A DNA stretch of 64,000 nt, taken from the NCBI RefSeq assembly GCF_002214605.1, contig NZ_CP015193.1:1897980-1961979 (forward strand). Direction: 5' to 3'. The notes under the pieces were generated by a model, which had not been told where the DNA came from, made no database searches, and saw only the letters and a program-made list of their open reading frames with translations. The translations under genes were made by a program, and so were the position numbers. Every line of letters begins with the position of its first letter. The stretch's first letter is position 1. The DNA comes from Thermococcus chitonophagus (GTDB lineage Archaea > Methanobacteriota_B > Thermococci > Thermococcales > Thermococcaceae). This document shows, piece by piece, positions 12,883 to 22,878 of this stretch.

Positions 12883-13338
12883 ATGACATTTCCAATATTG
12901 TTCGTTTATGCCCAATCCTCTAGAACTATTCTAGGTAATGAAAGAAGAATATGGGTAATTGAATGTCTAAAACAGAATCATGGAAAAGCCGAAATTGGAA
13001 AGATAGTTGATTATATTGCAGAGTTAGAAGGGAACAACACGAGAAGACATAGAAAGAGTATATATGTGAGCCTAGTTCAAACTCACCTGCCAAAAATGGA
13101 AAGAGAGGGCATAATTAAAGTTGAGAGAGGGAACGTTGAACTCCTAAAGATCCCACAAGAGGTAGAAAGATACATGAAAACAAGAGATACACTAAATTTC
13201 TGGCCAATTATTTATGTAGTGTTCTCAGGTGCAGCCCTCATCGCTTCCCTCATTAGAAAGAGCAATGACGGCGTTATAATAGCACTTCTCCTTCTTGCTC
13301 TTGCAGTTCTTCACTGGATTAAGGCTTCGGGGCAATAG
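12883..13338 (+). CDS. Membrane-anchored winged-helix regulator (DUF7344-like)
   Basis: A 151-residue protein whose first 95 residues look like a winged helix-turn-helix: NERRIWVIECLKQN, the LEGNNTRRHRKSIYVSLVQTHLPKMEREG recognition region, and the wing IIKVERGNVELL. Two hydrophobic segments (FWPIIYVVFSGAALIASLI and GVIIALLLLALAVLHWI) follow, so it is membrane tethered. It has its own promoter (GGTTAATATAAG about 12838-12849) and RBS AAAGGTGAAAC. It lies just upstream of the filament operon in the same direction and is the obvious candidate regulator of that operon. The regulatory link is inference. Confidence 0.7.
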   Translation: MTFPILFVYAQSSRTILGNERRIWVIECLKQNHGKAEIGKIVDYIAELEGNNTRRHRKSIYVSLVQTHLPKMEREGIIKVERGNVELLKIPQEVERYMKTRDTLNFWPIIYVVFSGAALIASLIRKSNDGVIIALLLLALAVLHWIKASGQ

Positions 13339-13358
13339 TTAACATCTTTTTCCTACGG

Positions 13359-13393
13359 TAACCATTGATTACTTCTTGGTTAATTTAAAACTA
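13359..13393 (+). promoter_or_regulatory. Filament operon promoter with inverted repeat
   Basis: TAACCA (13359-13364) and TGGTTA (13377-13382) form an inverted repeat with a 12-base spacer, abutting the TATA-like TAATTTAAAAC (13381-13391). The repeat lies where an archaeal activator would bind, just upstream of and touching the TATA/BRE. Binding by the adjacent winged-helix protein is a guess. Confidence 0.4.
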
Positions 13394-13425
13394 CCTATAT
13401 ACTTGTTCAGGACTACAATCAGATT

Positions 13426-13443
13426 GGACCCATATACGGGTCC
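13426..13443. repeat. Inverted repeat in the leader of the filament operon
   Basis: GGACCCATATACGGGTCC has 6-bp perfect arms with a 6-base loop and lies about 25-40 bases before the first pilin start codon. It could be an operator or a 5' mRNA hairpin. Confidence 0.45.
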
Positions 13444-13466
13444 AAGAGTATTTGGAGATGGAAAAG

Positions 13467-14060
13467 GTGAATAAATTTGGACTTGCCATATTTGGTCTAG
13501 TGGCCGTTTTCGGCCTTGTTCTTGGGGCTGGGGCCACATTTAGCGACTACAATGCCAGCAGAAGCGTACACTGGGACATAGTAACAGATGACACGGAGCT
13601 CATTGACTTAACTCCCATACAGCCCTATTCATATATCAATCAAACTACGGGAAAACTCGTCATAGATTTCTCAACGAACAATCCAAATTACCCAGGATAC
13701 GGGGACGGCATAAGCCCTGCATCAGAGTACAACTTTGATGAAGTTTTTGGAGTAAGCAACCACCTTTGGGAAGACATGGACATCGTAGTAGAAATAAAGT
13801 CAACAAACAGCCACATAGAACTATACGGGGCAGATGGTGATGTCTATTCAGCATATGATGGTGTAAAAGCATCAGCTAGCGATTCAGCAAGAGACTGGGT
13901 CTGTTTTGTAGTTCCTAACAATGCCACAGTTAAGATAGGAATTGACTTGTCAGCAAATGGTGACAGTCCAGGTGATACTTGGACCGGAGATATTGAGATT
14001 AAAGCATACAGGCTTGGCACTGAGCCTGCTTACTTGGCAGGCAAGTGCGGGCAGCCATGA
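13467..14060 (+). CDS. DUF1102 exported subunit, TasA/bundling-pilin-like (copy 1)
   Basis: A secreted protein of about 197 residues. An N-terminal hydrophobic segment (FGLAIFGLVAVFGLVLGAGA) is followed by TFSDYNASRSVHWDIV, the typical start of DUF1102 proteins. The body is beta-rich (TDDTELIDLTPIQPYSY, IDFSTNNPNYPGYGDGISP). Such proteins resemble bacterial TasA/camelysin and the archaeal bundling pilins, which polymerise after cleavage by a SipW-like peptidase; one is encoded two genes downstream. I prefer GTG 13467 (MNKFGLAIFG) because the paralogue begins MNKLFGFALFF and GGAGATGG precedes it; ATG 13458 is the alternative. Filament formation is inference from family and context. Confidence 0.75.
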   Translation: MNKFGLAIFGLVAVFGLVLGAGATFSDYNASRSVHWDIVTDDTELIDLTPIQPYSYINQTTGKLVIDFSTNNPNYPGYGDGISPASEYNFDEVFGVSNHLWEDMDIVVEIKSTNSHIELYGADGDVYSAYDGVKASASDSARDWVCFVVPNNATVKIGIDLSANGDSPGDTWTGDIEIKAYRLGTEPAYLAGKCGQP

Positions 14061-14074
14061 AGGAGGTATGAGAA

Positions 14075-14605
14075 ATGAATAAATTATTTGGGTTTGCCCT
14101 GTTCTTTGCAGGGCTAATGTTAGCCGTTGGCGCTGGAGCCAACTTCAGGTATTTCGAAGCAAGTAGAGATGTAAATGTCGCTATCGTAGCAGATGACAAC
14201 GAGCTTATTGACTTGACTCCACTTCAGCCTTATGTATATCTGAACAATGGAAAAATGACAATTGAAATCTCATCAAACAACCCACATTACCCAGGATATG
14301 GAAGTGGCCTCAGCCCAGACAGCACGTACGTATTTGAGGAAATGTTTGAGATTAGCAACGAACTATGGGAAAATGCAGATCAAGACTATCCAATTTGTGT
14401 AGAAGTGAAGGCCAGTGATGGAGTACAGGTATTTGCAGGATCATTTGATAACCCAACAGCTGGGCCTGCTGGAAACATTAGTGTTACTGTATATCATGGA
14501 AGTCCCGTAAAAATAGGGATGATATTCAACAACTATGGAAAGAACCTTGGCAGTGAGCAATTCCAGTTGGATATTAACACCGAAGCAGGTGAATGTACTA
14601 GGTGA
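14075..14605 (+). CDS. DUF1102 exported subunit, TasA/bundling-pilin-like (copy 2)
   Basis: A 176-residue paralogue of the preceding gene. The signal segment (LFGFALFFAGLMLAVGAGA) is followed by NFRYFEASRDVNVAIVADDN, then ELIDLTPLQPYVYLNNGK and SSNNPHYPGYGSGLSPDSTY, which align with copy 1 almost without gaps. The last third differs more between the copies, as expected for subunits with different surfaces. It starts 14 bases after copy 1, behind GGAGGTATGAGAA. A hairpin plus T-run follows its stop codon immediately, which would make the two pilins more abundant than the downstream peptidase. Confidence 0.75.
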   Translation: MNKLFGFALFFAGLMLAVGAGANFRYFEASRDVNVAIVADDNELIDLTPLQPYVYLNNGKMTIEISSNNPHYPGYGSGLSPDSTYVFEEMFEISNELWENADQDYPICVEVKASDGVQVFAGSFDNPTAGPAGNISVTVYHGSPVKIGMIFNNYGKNLGSEQFQLDINTEAGECTR

Positions 14606-14626
14606 GGAGCCTTTGCTCCTCTTTTT
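14604..14626 (+). terminator. Hairpin plus T-run inside the filament operon
   Basis: GAGGAGC (14604-14610), a CTTT loop, GCTCCTC (14615-14621), then five T. This is a perfect 7-bp stem followed by a U-tract, beginning within the stop codon of the second pilin. It resembles an intrinsic terminator and probably sets a high pilin-to-peptidase ratio by partial termination or by protecting the pilin mRNA 3' end. Confidence 0.65.
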
Positions 14627-14646
14627 AACTCTTGGTGGTTCAAGCT

Positions 14647-15621
14647 ATGAGGGCCTCCGATATTTTAATTCTAGCAATAATCCTTGGGCTAATAGTTCCC
14701 TCGACAATTGGATTCCTAGTTGGGAGGCCCGTCTTTGTTTCATATGTATACTCTGAAAGCATGTATCCAACTCTAAAGAAATGGGACGTGTTTTTCATAA
14801 ATCCATTTTCAAAAGGAGACATTGGGGATATAATAGTTTTCAACCTTTCTGGCAGATGGACCGTTCACAGAGTCTATGCCATAACTGAGAAAGGATATAT
14901 AACAAAAGGAGATAATAACGTCGCAACCGACCAACAAGACGGCAAAAACGCTCCTATACCAAAAAATCAGATAATTGGAAAGGTTATAACTATTGGAGGG
15001 AGACCATTAAAGATACCTGGGCTGGGGAAGTACATTACGTCCTCAGCGACCATGGTTATAGTTGGTGCATTGGGTATACTATCGATTATATCCGATACAG
15101 GTATGAAGAGAAAGAAAAGAAAGAGAATAGTAGTAACAACAGAGCAGATTTACCTAGGGCTTGCTGGGCTCCTTACAATTACAATGATCTTCATAGGTTC
15201 AATGAGCTGGGGAGAAGTAGAGATTACATACGCCTCAACACTCGCAGGAGGACAGAGGGAGGGATGGTATCTACCAGGAAGCACAATTGAAAAGAACTTA
15301 ACAATAAAGAACCCTTCAATGATTCCAATGGTCGTAATAGCTAGTGGAAAGATCATTAACACTACAACGCTTATGTTAAAAGGGCGTGAAGAAGCAACGA
15401 TACCAGTAAAGATTCTTGTACCAAAAGAAACTAGGATATATACAGATAAGGTCAGCATATCCTCATACTATCCAATTCTCCCAATTTCGGTAATAGATAA
15501 CCTTTACAGGATAAATCCTCGTCTGCCTCTAATAATTGAGGGTATGCTAGTATTCCTCCTCCTGCTCGCAATAGAACCACTCCTCGGGGATCCCGAGGTA
15601 GTATTTACAAGGAGATTTTGA
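14647..15621 (+). CDS. SipW-like signal peptidase with C-terminal surface domain
   Basis: A protein of about 324 residues. The first 140 residues are a signal peptidase I: membrane anchor at 5-27, nucleophile S38 in YSESMYPTL, H74 in WTVHRV and D89 in KGDNN, i.e. the ER/archaeal Ser-His-Asp type also seen in SipW. A further membrane segment (TMVIVGALGILSIISD), a basic cytoplasmic loop (KRKKRKR) and another membrane segment lead to an outside beta domain (residues about 195-295) and a final anchor (LIIEGMLVFLLLLAIEPLL). The extension is absent from the other peptidase at 2905-3369. ATG 14647 follows GGTGG. It presumably processes the two upstream pilins. Confidence 0.82.
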   Translation: MRASDILILAIILGLIVPSTIGFLVGRPVFVSYVYSESMYPTLKKWDVFFINPFSKGDIGDIIVFNLSGRWTVHRVYAITEKGYITKGDNNVATDQQDGKNAPIPKNQIIGKVITIGGRPLKIPGLGKYITSSATMVIVGALGILSIISDTGMKRKKRKRIVVTTEQIYLGLAGLLTITMIFIGSMSWGEVEITYASTLAGGQREGWYLPGSTIEKNLTIKNPSMIPMVVIASGKIINTTTLMLKGREEATIPVKILVPKETRIYTDKVSISSYYPILPISVIDNLYRINPRLPLIIEGMLVFLLLLAIEPLLGDPEVVFTRRF

Positions 15622-15623
15622 GA

Positions 15624-15989
15624 ATGATAAGAAAGATATTTGGTTTAGTCCTAATAGTGCTCGCCTTAACTCTCCCAACTTTTTCCACATTTAGCTACTA
15701 TAGGGCCCAAAGGAAGGTAACGATTGAGATTGGAAATGACCCAATGATAAAAGTTGATTGCCTAGGAAATGGGAGTATAAAAGTAACAAACAACATGGAT
15801 ACAATCGTTCATTTACAGGTTACTTGCAAACACTGTAAAACAGAAATTGAAACACTATATCCTGGAGAAAACATTACAATTGAGCACTGCCACAAGTATC
15901 TTGTGGTTGCAAGCTGGGAGAATGGGGGGGCAACAATTAGGGGACACTGTTGCTGTTGTCCCCATAATAAAAGGAGATGCAGAAATTGA
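15624..15989 (+). CDS. Exported Cys/His-rich small protein of the filament operon
   Basis: About 121 residues. An N-terminal hydrophobic segment (IFGLVLIVLALTLPTFSTF) is followed by SYYRAQRKVTIEIGND, echoing the post-signal segment of the DUF1102 pilins, so it may be a short, divergent filament component or cap. The mature part has a CKHC pair, a HCH motif and a C-terminal GHCCCCPHNKRRC cluster, nine cysteines in all, suggesting metal binding or disulfides outside the cell. The start is ATG 15624, nine bases after GGAG and just past the peptidase stop; TTG 15618 would be too close to that RBS. I do not recognise a named family. Confidence 0.65.
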   Translation: MIRKIFGLVLIVLALTLPTFSTFSYYRAQRKVTIEIGNDPMIKVDCLGNGSIKVTNNMDTIVHLQVTCKHCKTEIETLYPGENITIEHCHKYLVVASWENGGATIRGHCCCCPHNKRRCRN

Positions 15990-16912
15990 TTAAGAAAGAA
16001 CATGCCCTAGGGGCACTATTCCTGACTTTCCTCCTGCTGAGTGTGGCGGCGTATATGAAGGAGGAGAGCTATAAAGAGACAAAATTGGTGGAACAGATAG
16101 TCCAAAAAGGTGAGCTATCTCACTCAGCATACCTTACTAATGATACAGTCTATGGCAGGATAGCCAGCTTAGAATACTACCCAACAAGGATACTTGACAC
16201 GATATATGCTAACTACACCTATTCCATAGACCCAAGCGAAGCCGGATCATATTACATTACCGGAATGTCCTCGTACTACGTAACAAAAGGAAAAACTAAG
16301 ATTTACCTATTAAATGAGACAATATTCACAGTTAAAGGGAGATTTTCAAATGGTACATTTACCCAGGGCTTCAAAGTGAATTTGACCGAAATTAGAAACA
16401 GAAAGAGCGAGCTTGCAAAGGCGCTAGAACTTCCTAGGATATCCACCGAGGTAAAGATAATTGCAAGAATTAGAACAAAAGAGGGAGAATTTAAGCAGGA
16501 AATGCCAATTATCGAAGATACAAGTGGCCTCACGTATATAGGAGAGACGGAGCTTGAGAAAAAGAAGAACATAGTCAACACGGAGACCATTCAAAATTCG
16601 TTCCTCGGCATGAAAGTTTCAACATCACGGATTGTATTTCCATTGCTCGCATTGGCCTCAGCAGTTGCGCTTCTAATTGTGTGGAAACCGAAACCAAAAA
16701 GGAGAATTAATGCAATTGACGGGACCCCTACTGGCATAACATCTAGGGTTTTCATTGCTAATGAAGGGAGTTTAAAGAAAATTGCAAAAATTATTGGGAG
16801 TCCTATAATCCATTATACTATAGACGGAGTAGATATCTATGGCGTAATTGATGGGAATGTCATCTATGAATGGTGGGCTATGAAGACCGATGGGCCTGAA
16901 TCCAAGCAATAA
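15977..16912 (+). CDS. DUF5305 family membrane protein
   Basis: A 311-residue protein with an N-terminal membrane segment (ALGALFLTFLLLSVAAYM), a long outside beta-rich domain (residues about 35-205, with SLEYYPTRILDTIYANYTYS and YVTKGKTKIYLLNETIFTVKG), a second membrane segment (IVFPLLALASAVALLIVW) and a small cytoplasmic domain. This matches the DUF5305 layout commonly found beside SipW-like peptidase/pilin genes in archaea. It overlaps the Cys-rich gene by 13 bases, so it is in the same operon. It may anchor the filament or assist assembly. The 3' end overlaps the convergent archaellum-operon surface gene by 35 bases. Confidence 0.75.
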   Translation: MQKLIKKEHALGALFLTFLLLSVAAYMKEESYKETKLVEQIVQKGELSHSAYLTNDTVYGRIASLEYYPTRILDTIYANYTYSIDPSEAGSYYITGMSSYYVTKGKTKIYLLNETIFTVKGRFSNGTFTQGFKVNLTEIRNRKSELAKALELPRISTEVKIIARIRTKEGEFKQEMPIIEDTSGLTYIGETELEKKKNIVNTETIQNSFLGMKVSTSRIVFPLLALASAVALLIVWKPKPKRRINAIDGTPTGITSRVFIANEGSLKKIAKIIGSPIIHYTIDGVDIYGVIDGNVIYEWWAMKTDGPESKQ

Positions 16913-18818
16913 GGATGATTATTCCAGCTCCTATTAGTATCCCTAAGCCTAGACTTAATAAGCTAAACCTTGAGGTCGCTGTAAGGGTTTCAGTTACTAT
17001 GCTGGTCTTTGAGATCGGCACAGTTTTTGTTATTTGAACTGTTTTAGTTGTTGTAATTTTCTTTGTAACAATGGAACTTGATATTGTCACAGTTCTTGTT
17101 TTGACTACCGTCTTAGTAACGGTGGACACCTGGCCACTAGACGTCAGCACTGTTACATTAAAGTTCGCCCTTCCAAGGACTTTTCCATATGCTATTAATT
17201 CACCTTTTAGAACATAAGTTCCTGGAGTCACGGCAACGAGCTTCACTACAGATGTTCCCGGCCCAACAGGTACAACAACATTACCACCAAGAACATGACC
17301 ATTCGACAATAGACCCATACCATTAGGAAGGCTCAACGATAGATTTCCAAAGAATCCCTGAGGTGCTTTTATACTAACCTTAACATCAAAGGGAGACCCA
17401 GCTGGAACTTCACGTGGAGCCGTTATCGCAAAATTAACTGCAAGAGGTTTAACATTCAGCTTCGGCACATTTGATGAGAACTCCATGAATTTAAGTCCTC
17501 CACAGGCAAGGGGATACGGAATCGGAGCAACACCCTTTACTTTCCCCAAAGCCAGACTGCCCGAAGTGAGAGGAACCACAGTAAACTCAAACACTTTCTC
17601 CTTTCCAGGATCAAGAGATGGGATGTACCTCACGGCCTCATTGAGAACCCTAAATCCAGCCCCAGGAATAAACTCAACTATTCCTCCATATATTGGCCTA
17701 TTCCCCACATTTCGGACGATCACTTGAACTTTAGTTGGTACCAATGCAGTAGAGCTAGATGGAGGTATCACAGTTATGTTCAGAAGTGCCAGATACCCAG
17801 GCTTTTCTTTCGGGTTGTAGAATGTAATGAAAGTTCCCTTTTCACCATCTTGATCTTCACTGACCTCTACAAGCCCAACACTTAGGCCATCGTAGATTAT
17901 CGGGCTTATCCATACCTTACTAGCGTTCAAAACTCCAGACTCGAGCTCATCATAGCAGGAGTTTAAAATAGAGACATACGCCATGTCATCGGCTATTCCG
18001 TTTACTCGGAATATGTACGGGGAAATTACGTAGTCATGCCCCTCATAGACCGTAAACTCACGTGAAGGATCGTAGCTCACGCTGATTCCAAGGGCTCTGA
18101 GGTAGACCTCTATAAATATCCTGGGGTCACACATGTTGTTGACCATTATGCACCTGAACCCGATGTACTTCACTATGAAATCTCCAACTATAGCTGTATC
18201 TCCCTCCTCTATCCTGTAACTCTTCCCAGCATAGCCAACAGTAATAACGCTGTTCGTTTGATTATTCACTAACGTCATGTTTATGCTTTCTATCTCCAGC
18301 TTCATGTTTTCGTACGTTATATTATCCCCGATCTTTACTTCCCCCTTGAAAACCAACGGCCTTGGAATTATTGTTACAGTGTAATTTGCAAACGTGAAGG
18401 TAGAGGTCTTGAAGACCTTGCTCTCTCCACCATATGAGGCAACAACCTCAAATCCAGTAGGCGTAACATCGCTCACTTTTATTGTTAAGTTGCCCACCCT
18501 TACTTCTTGACCAACAAAAACAGGAGGAAACGAACCATTGACAAAAAGCTTTACTGGATCGCCTAAAAATACCCTGTAGATGGAAATATTTGCCATAGGG
18601 AGATTATAAATCGACCTTGGTATTAGTGAGTAGTACATAACTGAATTGTTAACCTCTTCAGCGACATAAATACTCCTCCCAGGATCAACGTCCAAGAAAG
18701 CCAGCGTTACGTTCCCATATGTAACCCTTTCCCCGATATCTATCCAACCAACAAATGAAGACGCCAAAGCCTGAGGAAGGAACATTAGCATTAGTAATAT
18801 CACAATTGTCTTCTTCAT
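16878..18818 (-). CDS. Stalked surface protein at the end of the archaellum operon
   Basis: A 646-residue exported protein. Residues 1-19 are a signal peptide (MKKTIVILLMLMFLPQALAS). Then come several immunoglobulin-like or NEW3-like beta domains (NVGNRPIYGGIVEFIPGAGF, FDVKVSIKAPQGFFGN), a Ser/Thr/Val-rich stalk around residues 555-610 with repeated VTKT/TVTKT units likely to be glycosylated, and a C-terminal membrane anchor (LSLGLGILIGAGIIILIAW). It starts three bases after the FlaJ stop with GGGGGATGA as RBS, so it is co-transcribed with the archaellum motor. A role at the cell-surface collar of the archaellum is possible but unproven. Confidence 0.65.
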   Translation of the reverse strand: MKKTIVILLMLMFLPQALASSFVGWIDIGERVTYGNVTLAFLDVDPGRSIYVAEEVNNSVMYYSLIPRSIYNLPMANISIYRVFLGDPVKLFVNGSFPPVFVGQEVRVGNLTIKVSDVTPTGFEVVASYGGESKVFKTSTFTFANYTVTIIPRPLVFKGEVKIGDNITYENMKLEIESINMTLVNNQTNSVITVGYAGKSYRIEEGDTAIVGDFIVKYIGFRCIMVNNMCDPRIFIEVYLRALGISVSYDPSREFTVYEGHDYVISPYIFRVNGIADDMAYVSILNSCYDELESGVLNASKVWISPIIYDGLSVGLVEVSEDQDGEKGTFITFYNPKEKPGYLALLNITVIPPSSSTALVPTKVQVIVRNVGNRPIYGGIVEFIPGAGFRVLNEAVRYIPSLDPGKEKVFEFTVVPLTSGSLALGKVKGVAPIPYPLACGGLKFMEFSSNVPKLNVKPLAVNFAITAPREVPAGSPFDVKVSIKAPQGFFGNLSLSLPNGMGLLSNGHVLGGNVVVPVGPGTSVVKLVAVTPGTYVLKGELIAYGKVLGRANFNVTVLTSSGQVSTVTKTVVKTRTVTISSSIVTKKITTTKTVQITKTVPISKTSIVTETLTATSRFSLLSLGLGILIGAGIIILIAWIQAHRSS

Positions 18819-18821
18819 CTC

Positions 18822-20531
18822 TCATCCCCCCAGTAGGTATAAGATTATCTCTCCCCCACCCAAGTGCATGAACTTAGCCATGAGCGTTTGTCCAACGTAC
18901 ATTCCCGCAGCAAAGACCCATAGAAGGATTACAAAGTAGTAAAGAGATCCAAGTATGTGCCCACCATCAGCAACCTTTATTGCCATAGCAGAAAGCAGTG
19001 AGTGAGCTATCATCATAACCAGCATTGAAATAGTGAGGAGCTGCATACCGCTTGGAGGAATAACGTGGATTATGTCACCGATGTACTCCGTAGGTATCTG
19101 CAACCTGCTGAAAAGGTCATTGATCGAGACGGCAACCTGGAATGAGGCAGCTAAAGAGAATGCAAACGCACCGGTAAGTCCAAGGATTATACCTATAAAA
19201 TTCGACACACTTTGCTGCCTCTTCCTCCTCAGTCTCACCAGCCTCTCAAAGTTCCTACTTATAACCTTACCAACGTAATCTGGTTCAGCACCCAATCTTA
19301 GGCTCTCCCTAAATATCTCTGAGAATATTCCAATTAACCAACTGCCAGTCTCAGCAATGAAGAAGTCCCAAGCCCTCTGACTGTCTACTCTTACAGCTAA
19401 TCTTCTGTAGAGGGCCCTTATATCCTCAGTTAGAGTTCCAAAGTCGTGAGCACTAAGGTACTTGAGTACGAGAAGTAGGGATGCACCACTTGCAGCAAGG
19501 GAAGATGCCAAGCTCCTTATGAAAGCCGGAAAGTTCTCATCTTTCCTGAATATCGATGCCTCCTCTTTCCTAATAACGTTCCCCACGTACATGAGAGGAG
19601 TTAACGTTAAGGCTATGACGAACGGGGTAGGAAGAGCGAACCTTGGCCTGATTACAACTAGGTATACAAGCAAAACTACCGGGATCAGGGCAACTGACAT
19701 TATCAGGGCTTTCTTTATCCTCTCCTGTCTGGGTGTTTTTACCTTCATCTCAGCCCAAATTGGATCTTCGGGCATCCTGTATTTTATAACCAACAGGGTG
19801 CCAATCTCCGCGGCTAAAATCAAGAAGATAAGGTAAAGAGCCAATCTACCGATGTTCTGGCCGGTAATTAGGGGCCCTATAATTATGAACGCCGCTGCAA
19901 ACACCACCGAGATTATAATTGATTCGTATATCTCCTTGAATATATCGAGATCATAGAGGGCACCTTCATAGAACGTCTGGAAGTCGTCCATAACGGTCTG
20001 TTGCTCTTGGAATAGGTAATCCTTCAGCTCAACACCACTATCCAAAGAGTACGCGAGTCTATCAAGGAAATCAGCAAAAACCCTGCTTGGAGTTCTTCTG
20101 GCTAGAAATCTAAAAGCTTCAGGCATCGAACGGTGGAGCTTGTCAACGATAATGTACACTTTTTTAAGCTCACTCGCTATTGCCCCAAGCTTTGGATCGC
20201 TCGCGAGAACCCTGAGCAGGTCACTCCTCCCAATTTCACTCGTTGAGAGTACCGCGAAATAAGTTATGAAGAACGGCAACTTTGAGTTTATGCTTATCCT
20301 CTTGGAATCAGCCATTAGATATGGATAAGCAACAACGTAGAGAGCTAGAATAATAGGAATTAAGTACATAAATAGCCTCAAACCAGTAGGGAGAGCCACA
20401 AGCCTGTTGAAGATGCTTATGGCAATAAAGATAACTGCAGAGCCAGCTAGCCCAGGTAACAATATCTTCCTAAGGTACTCCTTTGGATCAACGTCTGCCT
20501 TGACGAATATGCTGATCTTCTCCCCTGCCAT
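18822..20531 (-). CDS. flaJ: Archaellum membrane platform protein FlaJ/ArlJ
   Basis: The polytopic core of the archaellum machine, about 569 residues. It has two T2SS-F-like cytoplasmic domains (around SIGRSDLLRVLASDPKLGAI and RSLASSLAASGASLLLVLKYL) and several membrane segments, ending in FVILLWVFAAGMYVGQTL. It anchors the ATPase FlaI and the filament. ATG 20531 (MAGEKISIF) follows GAGGTGA with a five-base gap; a GTG nine bases upstream overlaps that RBS and is unlikely. It follows flaI in the operon. Confidence 0.92.
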   Translation of the reverse strand: MAGEKISIFVKADVDPKEYLRKILLPGLAGSAVIFIAISIFNRLVALPTGLRLFMYLIPIILALYVVAYPYLMADSKRISINSKLPFFITYFAVLSTSEIGRSDLLRVLASDPKLGAIASELKKVYIIVDKLHRSMPEAFRFLARRTPSRVFADFLDRLAYSLDSGVELKDYLFQEQQTVMDDFQTFYEGALYDLDIFKEIYESIIISVVFAAAFIIIGPLITGQNIGRLALYLIFLILAAEIGTLLVIKYRMPEDPIWAEMKVKTPRQERIKKALIMSVALIPVVLLVYLVVIRPRFALPTPFVIALTLTPLMYVGNVIRKEEASIFRKDENFPAFIRSLASSLAASGASLLLVLKYLSAHDFGTLTEDIRALYRRLAVRVDSQRAWDFFIAETGSWLIGIFSEIFRESLRLGAEPDYVGKVISRNFERLVRLRRKRQQSVSNFIGIILGLTGAFAFSLAASFQVAVSINDLFSRLQIPTEYIGDIIHVIPPSGMQLLTISMLVMMIAHSLLSAMAIKVADGGHILGSLYYFVILLWVFAAGMYVGQTLMAKFMHLGGGEIILYLLGG

Positions 20532-20545
20532 GAAATTCACCTCAG

Positions 20546-22159
20546 TCAGAGCCTGAAGCTCAGACCCTCGATACCCCTCTGGTAGAAGGCCTTGATCTCC
20601 CTATAAACGTCCCAGTAGTTGAATATCTTCAACTCGACCATCCTCTGTATTATCCTAGCCCTAAGGAAGAGCTCATCGTAAATATCCTTGGGATCTTCGT
20701 AACCAGCTATCTCAGCTATCTTCCTCTCAAGGATGTACGAGTTGTTCATACCTCTGAAGATGTGTTTGTCACTCACAGGATCCCACTCGAAGACGTTCCT
20801 AGTTGCGACCCCACCGAGCTCCTCATAGTACCCCTCGATCTCAACAACCGTTAGAACCCTTCTCAGGAATTTACCCCTAACGTAAACGGCCTGCTGGAAT
20901 ATGGCTATGTTGAGATTGTCTATGAACGTTATCGGAACGTTAATTGGAGAACCCGTGAAACGCTGTATCATCTTCTTAACGTCACCGGCGTGGAAAGTAC
21001 TCATCACTGGGTGACCCGTCTGCATAGCCTGGAATGCAATAGCACCCTCGGCACCTCTGATCTCACCGACTATGATGTAGTTGGGCCTTGATCTTAATGC
21101 TGCCTTAAGCAGATCGAACAACGTTACTCTACTCTCTTCAGGACCTCTCTCCCTCGTCACAAGCCTCTGCCATGTGGGATGAGGAACCTGAACTTCGGGG
21201 GTATCCTCAGCGGTGAACACTTTTGATCCGGGCTTTATGAATGGTATTATAGCATTGAGGGTTGTAGTTTTACCTGAAGCTGTCTCACCGCACACGAATA
21301 TACTCATACCATACTCTATGGCTAGCCAGAGATACGCTGCAATCTCGGCACTCATGGTTCCCCAGGCAACCAGCTGGGTAATGCTCAGTGGGGTTGCGGC
21401 GAATTTTCTTATAGTAGCACTCGGACCCTTCAATGATATGTCGGGAGAGTAGATTATGTTTATACGCGATCCATCGGGAAGGGAACCATCAACTATTGGG
21501 TTCCTGTCACTTACTGGCCTTCCAATTCTCTCAGAAAGGTTCTTAAAGTAATCAGCTAGTTCAACGTTGTCCTTCCACCTTATGTTCGTTGGTAGGTGCT
21601 CGAATATCTTGTGAACTAGAGAAACGTAGTGGGCGCCTATTATGTGGATATCCTCGATGTATGGATCTCTTGCCAAAGGTTCAAGAGGGCCTATCCCAAT
21701 GATGTCCCTCTTGATCAGGTAACGGAACTTCTCCATCTCCTCCTTGGTTATCGTGATCCCTTTCCTGCCTTTAACAAGAGAAAGAACAGCCTCCTCAAAA
21801 AGGGAGTCAAGAAATCTCTCAAACTCTTCCTGCTCCTCTGGAATATCTCTATTTGGGGCCAACTCAAGGATTCTATCTTTTATCATTCTGTACTTCTCTT
21901 CTTCCTCCCTCGTTTCTATCCTGGGCTCGATAACTATGTACTGCTTCTCGGTCTGGGGGTCACCATAGATGTGAATGAAGATTGGATCACCTACAGGATA
22001 GATTATATTTGGGTAGGGAATTTCCTTCATATCCCTACTTAGTTGAACGTGAAACTCCGGAACTTTACCATACTTCTTTCTAAACTGCTCAACGTACTTC
22101 TTTAGGTGAGGATTTCTCCTCATTGCATCCTCCAGTGTCTGGGAAACAGCCTCAGCCAT
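20546..22159 (-). CDS. flaI: Archaellum assembly/rotation ATPase FlaI/ArlI
   Basis: A hexameric type II/IV secretion ATPase that powers assembly and rotation. Of about 537 residues, Walker A is GETASGKTTT (291-300). The Asp box, the Walker B-like PNYIIVGEIRGAEG and the His box (STFHAGD) follow. The N-terminal half carries the FRKKYGKVPEFHVQL segment that docks to FlaJ/FlaX-like parts. I place the start at ATG 22159 (MAEAVSQTLED) behind GGGGTGGTGAGG. The longer frame starts inside flaH. Confidence 0.94.
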   Translation of the reverse strand: MAEAVSQTLEDAMRRNPHLKKYVEQFRKKYGKVPEFHVQLSRDMKEIPYPNIIYPVGDPIFIHIYGDPQTEKQYIVIEPRIETREEEEKYRMIKDRILELAPNRDIPEEQEEFERFLDSLFEEAVLSLVKGRKGITITKEEMEKFRYLIKRDIIGIGPLEPLARDPYIEDIHIIGAHYVSLVHKIFEHLPTNIRWKDNVELADYFKNLSERIGRPVSDRNPIVDGSLPDGSRINIIYSPDISLKGPSATIRKFAATPLSITQLVAWGTMSAEIAAYLWLAIEYGMSIFVCGETASGKTTTLNAIIPFIKPGSKVFTAEDTPEVQVPHPTWQRLVTRERGPEESRVTLFDLLKAALRSRPNYIIVGEIRGAEGAIAFQAMQTGHPVMSTFHAGDVKKMIQRFTGSPINVPITFIDNLNIAIFQQAVYVRGKFLRRVLTVVEIEGYYEELGGVATRNVFEWDPVSDKHIFRGMNNSYILERKIAEIAGYEDPKDIYDELFLRARIIQRMVELKIFNYWDVYREIKAFYQRGIEGLSFRL

Positions 22160-22179
22160 CCTCACCACCCCCTCTCGCT

Positions 22180-22878
22180 TCACACTACAGCTGCAATCTC
22201 AACTACAAGTCCTACCTTAGGCTCAACCCTGAAGGGTATAATCTTCTGAAATACACCCTTTGCATTGTTGTACTTCACAATCGTTGCCGAATTCTTTAGG
22301 TCGCCACCGAAAACTCTAACGTTAAGGCGCATAAGCAACGTTGATGCCTCTTCGAGGAGAAATAACACATCCCTGGGGAGCTCCTCTGGGTTAGCGGTGA
22401 GTATGATAACCTTACCTAAACTTGAGAGCCTCTTTATGTACATGAGGAAGTTTCTAACACTCCTAACCTCCTGCTCTCTCGAAAGGACGGATGAAAAGGA
22501 GTCAATCACAACGATATCCTGTTCCCACAATCTAGGTTCACCCAATAATCTGCTTAAGAACTTCCTCTCCTCACTAACTCCACTAAGTAGAGGGTAAAGT
22601 GATACAAATACAAGCTTTTTTCTTATGAGGAAAGGGATTACATCATAGCTAATCGACATCATCTGCTTGACATATTCAACAGTTGTATATTGAGAGGAGA
22701 TATAGCTTGCGGTATAACCGTTCATAAGGAACCCGTATAATAGTCTCTGGGAAAGTATGGACTTCCCTGTTCCCCTGTCACCTTCAATGAGCATTATTGT
22801 GCCAGCAGGAATGCCACCGCCAAGCCTCCTGTGAAGTTCATCGCCTTTTAAGTCAATCCTAAGGAGCTCCTCGACCAA
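22180..22878 (-). CDS. flaH: Archaellum RecA-like regulator FlaH/ArlH
   Basis: A RecA/KaiC-like ATP-binding partner of FlaI, about 232 residues. Walker A is GDRGTGKS (33-40) and the Walker B region is WEQDIVVIDSFSSVL. The frame is open further upstream (to 22998) but that part overlaps flaG. TTG 22878, placed after GGGGGTGATC, a full match to the 16S anti-Shine-Dalgarno, is the credible start and gives VEELLRIDLKGDELHRRLGG, as in other FlaH proteins. FlaH is thought to switch FlaI between modes by ATP-dependent binding. Confidence 0.9.
   Translation of the reverse strand: MVEELLRIDLKGDELHRRLGGGIPAGTIMLIEGDRGTGKSILSQRLLYGFLMNGYTASYISSQYTTVEYVKQMMSISYDVIPFLIRKKLVFVSLYPLLSGVSEERKFLSRLLGEPRLWEQDIVVIDSFSSVLSREQEVRSVRNFLMYIKRLSSLGKVIILTANPEELPRDVLFLLEEASTLLMRLNVRVFGGDLKNSATIVKYNNAKGVFQKIIPFRVEPKVGLVVEIAAVV

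Follow-up and report, generated by a model that had tools for sequence, protein, structure and literature searches.

The gene cluster and its conservation

The subject of this study is a six-gene operon of the archaeon Thermococcus chitonophagus, located within a stretch of 64,000 nt (contig NZ_CP015193.1, positions 1,897,980 to 1,961,979) that is referred to below as the window; coordinates are positions in the window unless prefixed with a locus (L) or genome (G) identifier. A preliminary description had claimed six genes at 12883-16912, and six open frames, all on the + strand, are indeed found there, with profile scores bearing out the families that it named: DUF1102 (twice), a SipW-like peptidase, DUF5305 and a membrane winged-helix protein. 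The operon, in our judgement, very probably encodes a surface filament that assembles by donor-strand exchange and is of the same kind as the archaeal bundling pilus and the Tafi pilus, with the roles proposed below for its parts. Its genes, and an RNA hairpin lying among them, are as follows:

12883..13338, + strand: wHTH (winged helix-turn-helix protein), first gene of the cluster; DUF7344 winged-helix domain (62.1 bits) and two C-terminal transmembrane segments (106-124 and 130-148)
13467..14060, + strand: subunit A, DUF1102 (189.5 bits); signal peptide, F..Y.A.R donor motif, two conserved Cys
14075..14605, + strand: subunit B, DUF1102 (177.4 bits); mature part from about 14141
14604..14621, + strand: RNA hairpin GAGGAGC-CTTT-GCTCCTC at the B stop codon, followed by TTTTT at 14622-14626
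14632..15621, + strand: SipW-like signal peptidase; an S26-type domain bearing S.SM.P and His precedes a second exported segment, which lies between further transmembrane segments
15618..15989, + strand: X, exported protein rich in Cys (9) and His (6); short form of a putative tip- or initiator-like subunit
15977..16912, + strand: DUF5305 (30.3 bits, cut-off 29); two membrane segments, ectodomain, conserved cytoplasmic tail

Both subunits lie above the curated cut-off of 22.2 bits for DUF1102 (PF06510). The start of gene A is most likely the GTG at 13467 rather than the TTG at 13452, because a ribosome-binding GGAGATG stands just upstream of it and the upstream sequence is conserved.

For comparison, 60 Thermococcales loci were fetched, making 61 with the window, and genes were assigned by profile. 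The order wHTH-A-B-(C)-peptidase-X-DUF5305 is kept in all 61, which belong to six genera, the wHTH gene being detected in 57 and a third DUF1102 gene, C (L041:6105-6617 and 22 other loci), in 23. Spacing is operon-like: 14 nt separate A from B and 26 nt B from the peptidase gene, while later genes overlap (X and the peptidase gene by 4 nt); across loci A and B are always adjacent, with a median gap of 13 nt. By profile search, 87 of 94 Thermococcales genomes contain DUF1102; among the 74 near-complete ones the count is 72.

The same cluster was found by genome scan in Archaeoglobus, Geoglobus and other Archaeoglobi assemblies, where the pilins are 36-62% identical and most loci also keep the Thermococcales gene order; five assemblies with the cluster carry DUF5305 upstream on the opposite strand. 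This sample consists mostly of metagenome assemblies, so that single cases may be binning errors, but the agreement extends over many independent assemblies. A tree of 118 subunits from Thermococcales and Archaeoglobi cleanly separates all A, all B and all C proteins from one another (support 0.97 for the A group and 0.88 for the C group, low for the B group). Since these groups span both archaeal lineages, the positions are orthologous, the duplications predating either the split or a transfer between the two lineages. The A-B(-C) paralogues are thus strictly kept across two archaeal groups, a pattern of which no description was found.

Subunits A and B and their structural relatives

The two DUF1102 proteins had been noted beforehand for their matching N-termini; A and B do match, only the match is not limited to these two, X sharing it as well. 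The motif F..[YF]..R is present in A and B of all 61 loci, in X of 55 of 61 and in none of the 23 C proteins, compared with 2 of 1035 other open reading frames, this background being drawn from the fetched loci only. Both the motif pattern and the gene order are far above chance. Following the conserved Arg, positions +2, +4 and +6 are hydrophobic and +1, +3 and +5 polar in A, B and X, the alternation of a strand that has one face buried. A and B always contain two Cys, X 4-16, and the peptidase and DUF5305 none or one; A proteins are 76-91% identical within the genus.

The model of mature B is an all-beta sandwich (predicted local distance difference test, pLDDT, 81) in which residues 1-19 are unfolded (pLDDT <50) yet carry the conserved F2 and R9. 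Pilin models lacking the sandwich or the donor strand had been named beforehand as an outcome that would speak against the filament, and what was obtained is a sandwich with an unfolded, conserved N-tail; by prediction, B thus has the beta-sandwich and the free N-terminal strand after the cleavage site that mark archaeal donor-strand pili. A Foldseek search of mature B against 350,542 chains placed 7ueg_A at the top (E 7.7e-4), the only PDB match below 1e-3. VIA comparisons of the B model gave:

7ueg (Pyrobaculum bundling pilus): Z 8.2, 113 residues, 2.7 A
9p0a (Natrinema Tafi pilus): Z 7.7, 118 residues, 3.5 A
7pnb (Sulfolobus thread): Z 6.8, 113 residues, 3.5 A

These Z values are middling in themselves; kinship with pili becomes persuasive because three archaeal strand-exchange filaments stand among the nine best VIA matches and because the Tafi pilin comes out, independently, as the best match of the DUF1102 profile among PDB sequences (E 0.041, over signal peptide and donor motif). 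Sequence searches of the PDB with single pilins returned chance matches only. The suggested fold comparison with AbpA and TasA came out on the side of AbpA (7ueg); TasA was not among the matches listed for the B model, which is no evidence against a shared fold.

A further tie to the Taf families comes from a Haloarcula plasmid protein that aligns with the DUF1102 profile end to end (97.6%) and also matches TafE (6.5e-20) and TafA (5.8e-9), both under the cut-offs, which ties DUF1102 and Taf proteins together. On a Haloarcula rara plasmid (L105:5932-7243), tandem unannotated DUF1102-like genes were seen, with a TafE match of about 1e-19, again under the cut-off. The literature found by search does not mention the DUF1102 family.

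Among known systems, AbpA of Pyrobaculum calidifontis (7ueg) is the best structural match of B and likewise consists of a beta-sandwich after a loose N-strand, but identity is about 10% and no sequence-level link was found; the operon described here also differs in having two orthologous subunits, an X protein with variable stalks and the RNA hairpin. The Tafi pilus of Natrinema sp. J7-2 (9p0a; NCBIfam TafA, TafC, TafE, TafF) is the second-best VIA match and the best PDB profile match, and haloarchaeal relatives match both DUF1102 and, weakly, TafE/TafA; no Thermococcales protein, however, reaches the TafA model, which gave no match at E 0.001 in the 94 Thermococcales genomes. The pilins were accordingly rejected as TafA (NF052520), scoring 16.5 and 19.2 bits against an equivalog cut-off of 190. 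The thread of Sulfolobus acidocaldarius (7pnb; PMC9715654) is another strand-complemented archaeal fibre but has a different gene cluster (Saci_0406/0405), links its subunits by isopeptide bonds and shows 4% identity.

With the TapA-SipW-TasA system of Bacillus subtilis the operon shares a dedicated SipW-type peptidase, whereas its pilins are not of the Peptidase_M73/TasA family and its gene order and accessories differ (wHTH, DUF5305, two DUF1102 proteins). Assignment of the pilins to TasA/camelysin (PF12389, Peptidase_M73) was rejected, the sole match in the genome being an orphan gene (G000:C1:1759351) and none lying in the operon; a profile comparison with the orphan aligned the N-terminus only, with a probability of 13%. 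Of the system originally named, therefore, the strand-exchange pilus kind stands, while membership of the TasA sequence family does not, the subunits going with AbpA, Tafi and DUF1102. Strong comparative evidence marks the operon as one for a strand-exchange pilus, with AbpA and Tafi as closer kin than TasA.

Protein X, the peptidase and DUF5305

Although X itself gave no family match in the profile search, the earlier statement that the Cys-rich component matches no known family did not hold: its profile matches the pilin profile at 98.6%, which identifies X as a shortened member of the pilin subunit family. A new family was rejected on the same grounds, X being a short form of longer relatives with an N-domain homologous to the pilins. 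X is likewise short (124-148 aa) in the seven sister loci, while proteins at the same position in other Thermococcales genera are mostly 290-481 aa long; the long forms carry one or two extra domains, which are DUF11-like in the cases with a family match. Most relatives of X bear such DUF11-type stalk domains, which the host genus is without; short forms also occur in some Archaeoglobi. When long and short forms are aligned, F2, R9, C25, N35, G80 and C88 are invariant. Within the genus X reaches about 30-48% identity, which makes it the most variable of the operon proteins. At least six Cys and His fall within the last 40 residues in 23 of the 61 X proteins and in no A or B.

The model of X is a seven-strand immunoglobulin (Ig)-like domain with residues 1-15 unfolded (pLDDT <50); its structural matches are generic Ig/FN3 folds, from which no function is named. 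TapA, which has a C92-C188 disulfide and a loose N-strand, initiates filaments and accepts no strand (PMC10151520). The predicted anatomy of X resembles that of TapA in its complete Ig fold, Cys pair near the domain ends and loose N-strand, and on this ground we infer that X is an initiator or tip subunit. A TapA-like protein with loss or gain of stalk domains, as X appears to be, was not found described.

The operon peptidase scores 70 bits against archaeal signal peptidase I (TIGR02228, cut-off 51.85) and 22.4 bits against Bacillus SipW (NF046067), below the cut-off of 190. Its catalytic Ser (S.SM.P) and His (H[RK]) motifs are present in all 61 loci, and in all of these its presumed substrates are adjacent; the housekeeping peptidase is a separate gene (G000:C1:1900905-1901336, 150.8 bits), the operon copy lying about 11 kb off at 1912644. 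These features identify it as a dedicated SipW-like enzyme that would cleave the adjacent subunits, with DUF5305 likely serving as its anchor or assembly partner.

The same pair was observed beside other subunits. A second operon, carried by some Thermococcales (L106, L107, L111), encodes proteins with WAYFSDTETS-like TasA-type N-termini, followed by a SipW-like peptidase and DUF5305, and L108 and L109, from another family of the class, combine DUF1102-like genes with peptidase and DUF5305. Because the pair recurs with different subunits, it is the constant core, and the subunits are exchangeable. The orphan TasA/camelysin-type gene mentioned above (L055:7244-7933, G000:C1:1759243-1759932; Peptidase_M73 28.2-28.8 bits, N-terminus LGAFRDVSRSEDN) has neither peptidase nor DUF5305 alongside, and its product is perhaps a second substrate of the operon enzyme.

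Candidate regulatory elements, proposed assembly and alternatives

The RNA hairpin after gene B lies between the two subunit genes and the assembly genes. In the form GGRGC-NTTT-GCYCC or a close variant, with a strict nTTT loop, it follows B in 47 of 61 loci and never A or C; with other loops allowed, 60 of 61 loci have a stable hairpin behind B, its energy averaging -9.2 kcal/mol where shuffled sequences give -4.4. Both sides have changed in four of the five stem pairs; the covariation score was not reached in any of 500 shuffles and is lost when the pairing is slid, with the qualification that the rows were preselected as hairpins, which biases the percentage paired and partly also the double changes. 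The hairpin pattern occurs once in the 1.96-Mb genome and the T-run is absent in many genomes, and a generic terminator of the genome was rejected on both counts. Rfam has nothing at this position, only two tRNAs reaching gathering score in the region, and the hairpin is mostly absent in Archaeoglobi, where it was also sought. Such an operon-internal RNA hairpin was not found described. In the archaellum operon of Pyrococcus furiosus, internal terminators have been proposed to tune expression (PMC10665913), and we propose that the hairpin likewise raises the subunits over the enzymes.

Upstream of gene A, between it and the wHTH gene, lie three further elements:

13357..13383, + strand: GGTAAC/GGTTAA-type repeat ahead of the A promoter, a candidate site for a regulator
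13391..13402, + strand: BRE (B recognition element)/TATA-like element CTACCTATATAC of gene A, nearly identical in sister loci L033-L038
13424..13445, + strand: hairpin TTGGACCC-ATATAC-GGGTCCAA (inverted repeat), presumed 5' leader of gene A

A TATA element was found upstream of gene A in 55 of 57 loci, with GGTAA or TTACC at most 75 nt upstream of it in 55 of 55, and the wHTH protein is a candidate membrane-bound regulator of the operon. Similar inverted repeats with a different sequence are also present in the leaders of sister loci, and over 45 testable loci the mean is -11.4 kcal/mol against -7.6 shuffled; evidence for this hairpin is weaker than for that after B, and it may shield the 5' end of the message. 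On the other side of the operon, a convergent gene (16878-18818) encodes a large exported protein of 646 aa with a weak CARDB match. All eight loci of the genus have this gene beside the operon, and type IV pilus-like assembly genes (18822-22183) come after it.

From the gene order, homology, predicted folds, catalytic and N-terminal motifs and RNA covariation we infer a route covering cleavage, polymerisation, the role of X, the effect of the hairpin and regulation. A and B would be exported and retained by their signal peptides until the SipW-like peptidase cuts before the invariant Phe, freeing an amphipathic N-strand that would slot into the groove of the adjoining subunit's beta-sandwich. 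X would be cut likewise but, as a complete, disulfide-closed Ig domain, would donate a strand and accept none, thereby starting or tipping the filament in the way that TapA serves TasA. Next to the peptidase, DUF5305 would anchor or guide assembly, its two membrane segments serving as a tether. With the hairpin after B, there would be more A-B message than message for the downstream machinery; the A promoter would be under the control of the membrane wHTH protein.

Several observations weigh against this route. Z values of 7-8 can come from a common sandwich, unrelated MSP-like domains reaching Z 6-7.4 in the same list; protein C, with its missing donor motif, is unexplained by the filament model, although it may act as a cap, taking up a strand without donating one; the filament and its cleavage site are predictions, as are the open groove in A and B and the C25-C88 disulfide in X. 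Furthermore, three close genomes seem, by hit counts and one inspected locus, to keep X, peptidase and DUF5305 without A, B and C. The inspected locus (L110:3123-6673, in G080; by hit counts probably also G081 and G082) contains intact wHTH, peptidase, X and DUF5305 genes with A, B and C absent. X may therefore also work without a filament.

This last point, by which a processed X would be useful alone, also favours a reading of A, B and X as SipW-processed, non-polymerising surface proteins of an exported coat or S-layer-associated complex, as do the common occurrence of Ig-like domains on archaeal surfaces and the fact that the polymer is a predicted one. Given that three of the nine closest structural neighbours of B are archaeal strand-exchange filaments and that its N-tail is unfolded in the monomer model yet conserved and amphipathic, we regard a coat as very unlikely. 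That A and B each form their own filament, as homopolymers or alternative pili, would change the architecture and not the strand-exchange mechanism; their being distinct orthologous groups in Thermococcales and Archaeoglobi agrees with this, but their constant adjacency, seemingly single promoter and shared position before the hairpin make it unlikely. Somewhat less doubtful is a role for X other than tip or initiator, either as a membrane-proximal anchor or as an unattached protein, encoded in the operon, with a metal-binding or redox function, to which its 4-16 Cys and the C-terminal Cys and His clusters could point; X nevertheless has the donor motif and fold family of the pilins, its gene overlaps that of the peptidase, and it changes fastest of the set, as expected for an exposed end, so that we hold the initiator or tip to be the better description. 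A more detailed scenario combines a two-subunit A+B filament, ancient in both archaeal groups, with a TapA-like tip in which rapidly evolving Cys/His clusters of X hold on to metal or metal sulfide at the surface of vent chimneys and a hairpin that sets the ratio of subunits to machinery; taken as a whole we consider it quite improbable.

The donor-strand-exchange filament proposed here would offer a testable function for DUF1102, and both Thermococcus kodakarensis and Pyrococcus furiosus have working genetics. On this view nearly all Thermococcales should have a second kind of filament in addition to the archaellum, a prediction that homology extends to Archaeoglobi, and haloarchaeal Tafi pili would be linked with proteins of hyperthermophiles. 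The SipW-DUF5305 core is set apart from two different subunit families, and the hairpin after B would represent an RNA element that may set the pilin-to-machinery ratio in an archaeal operon.

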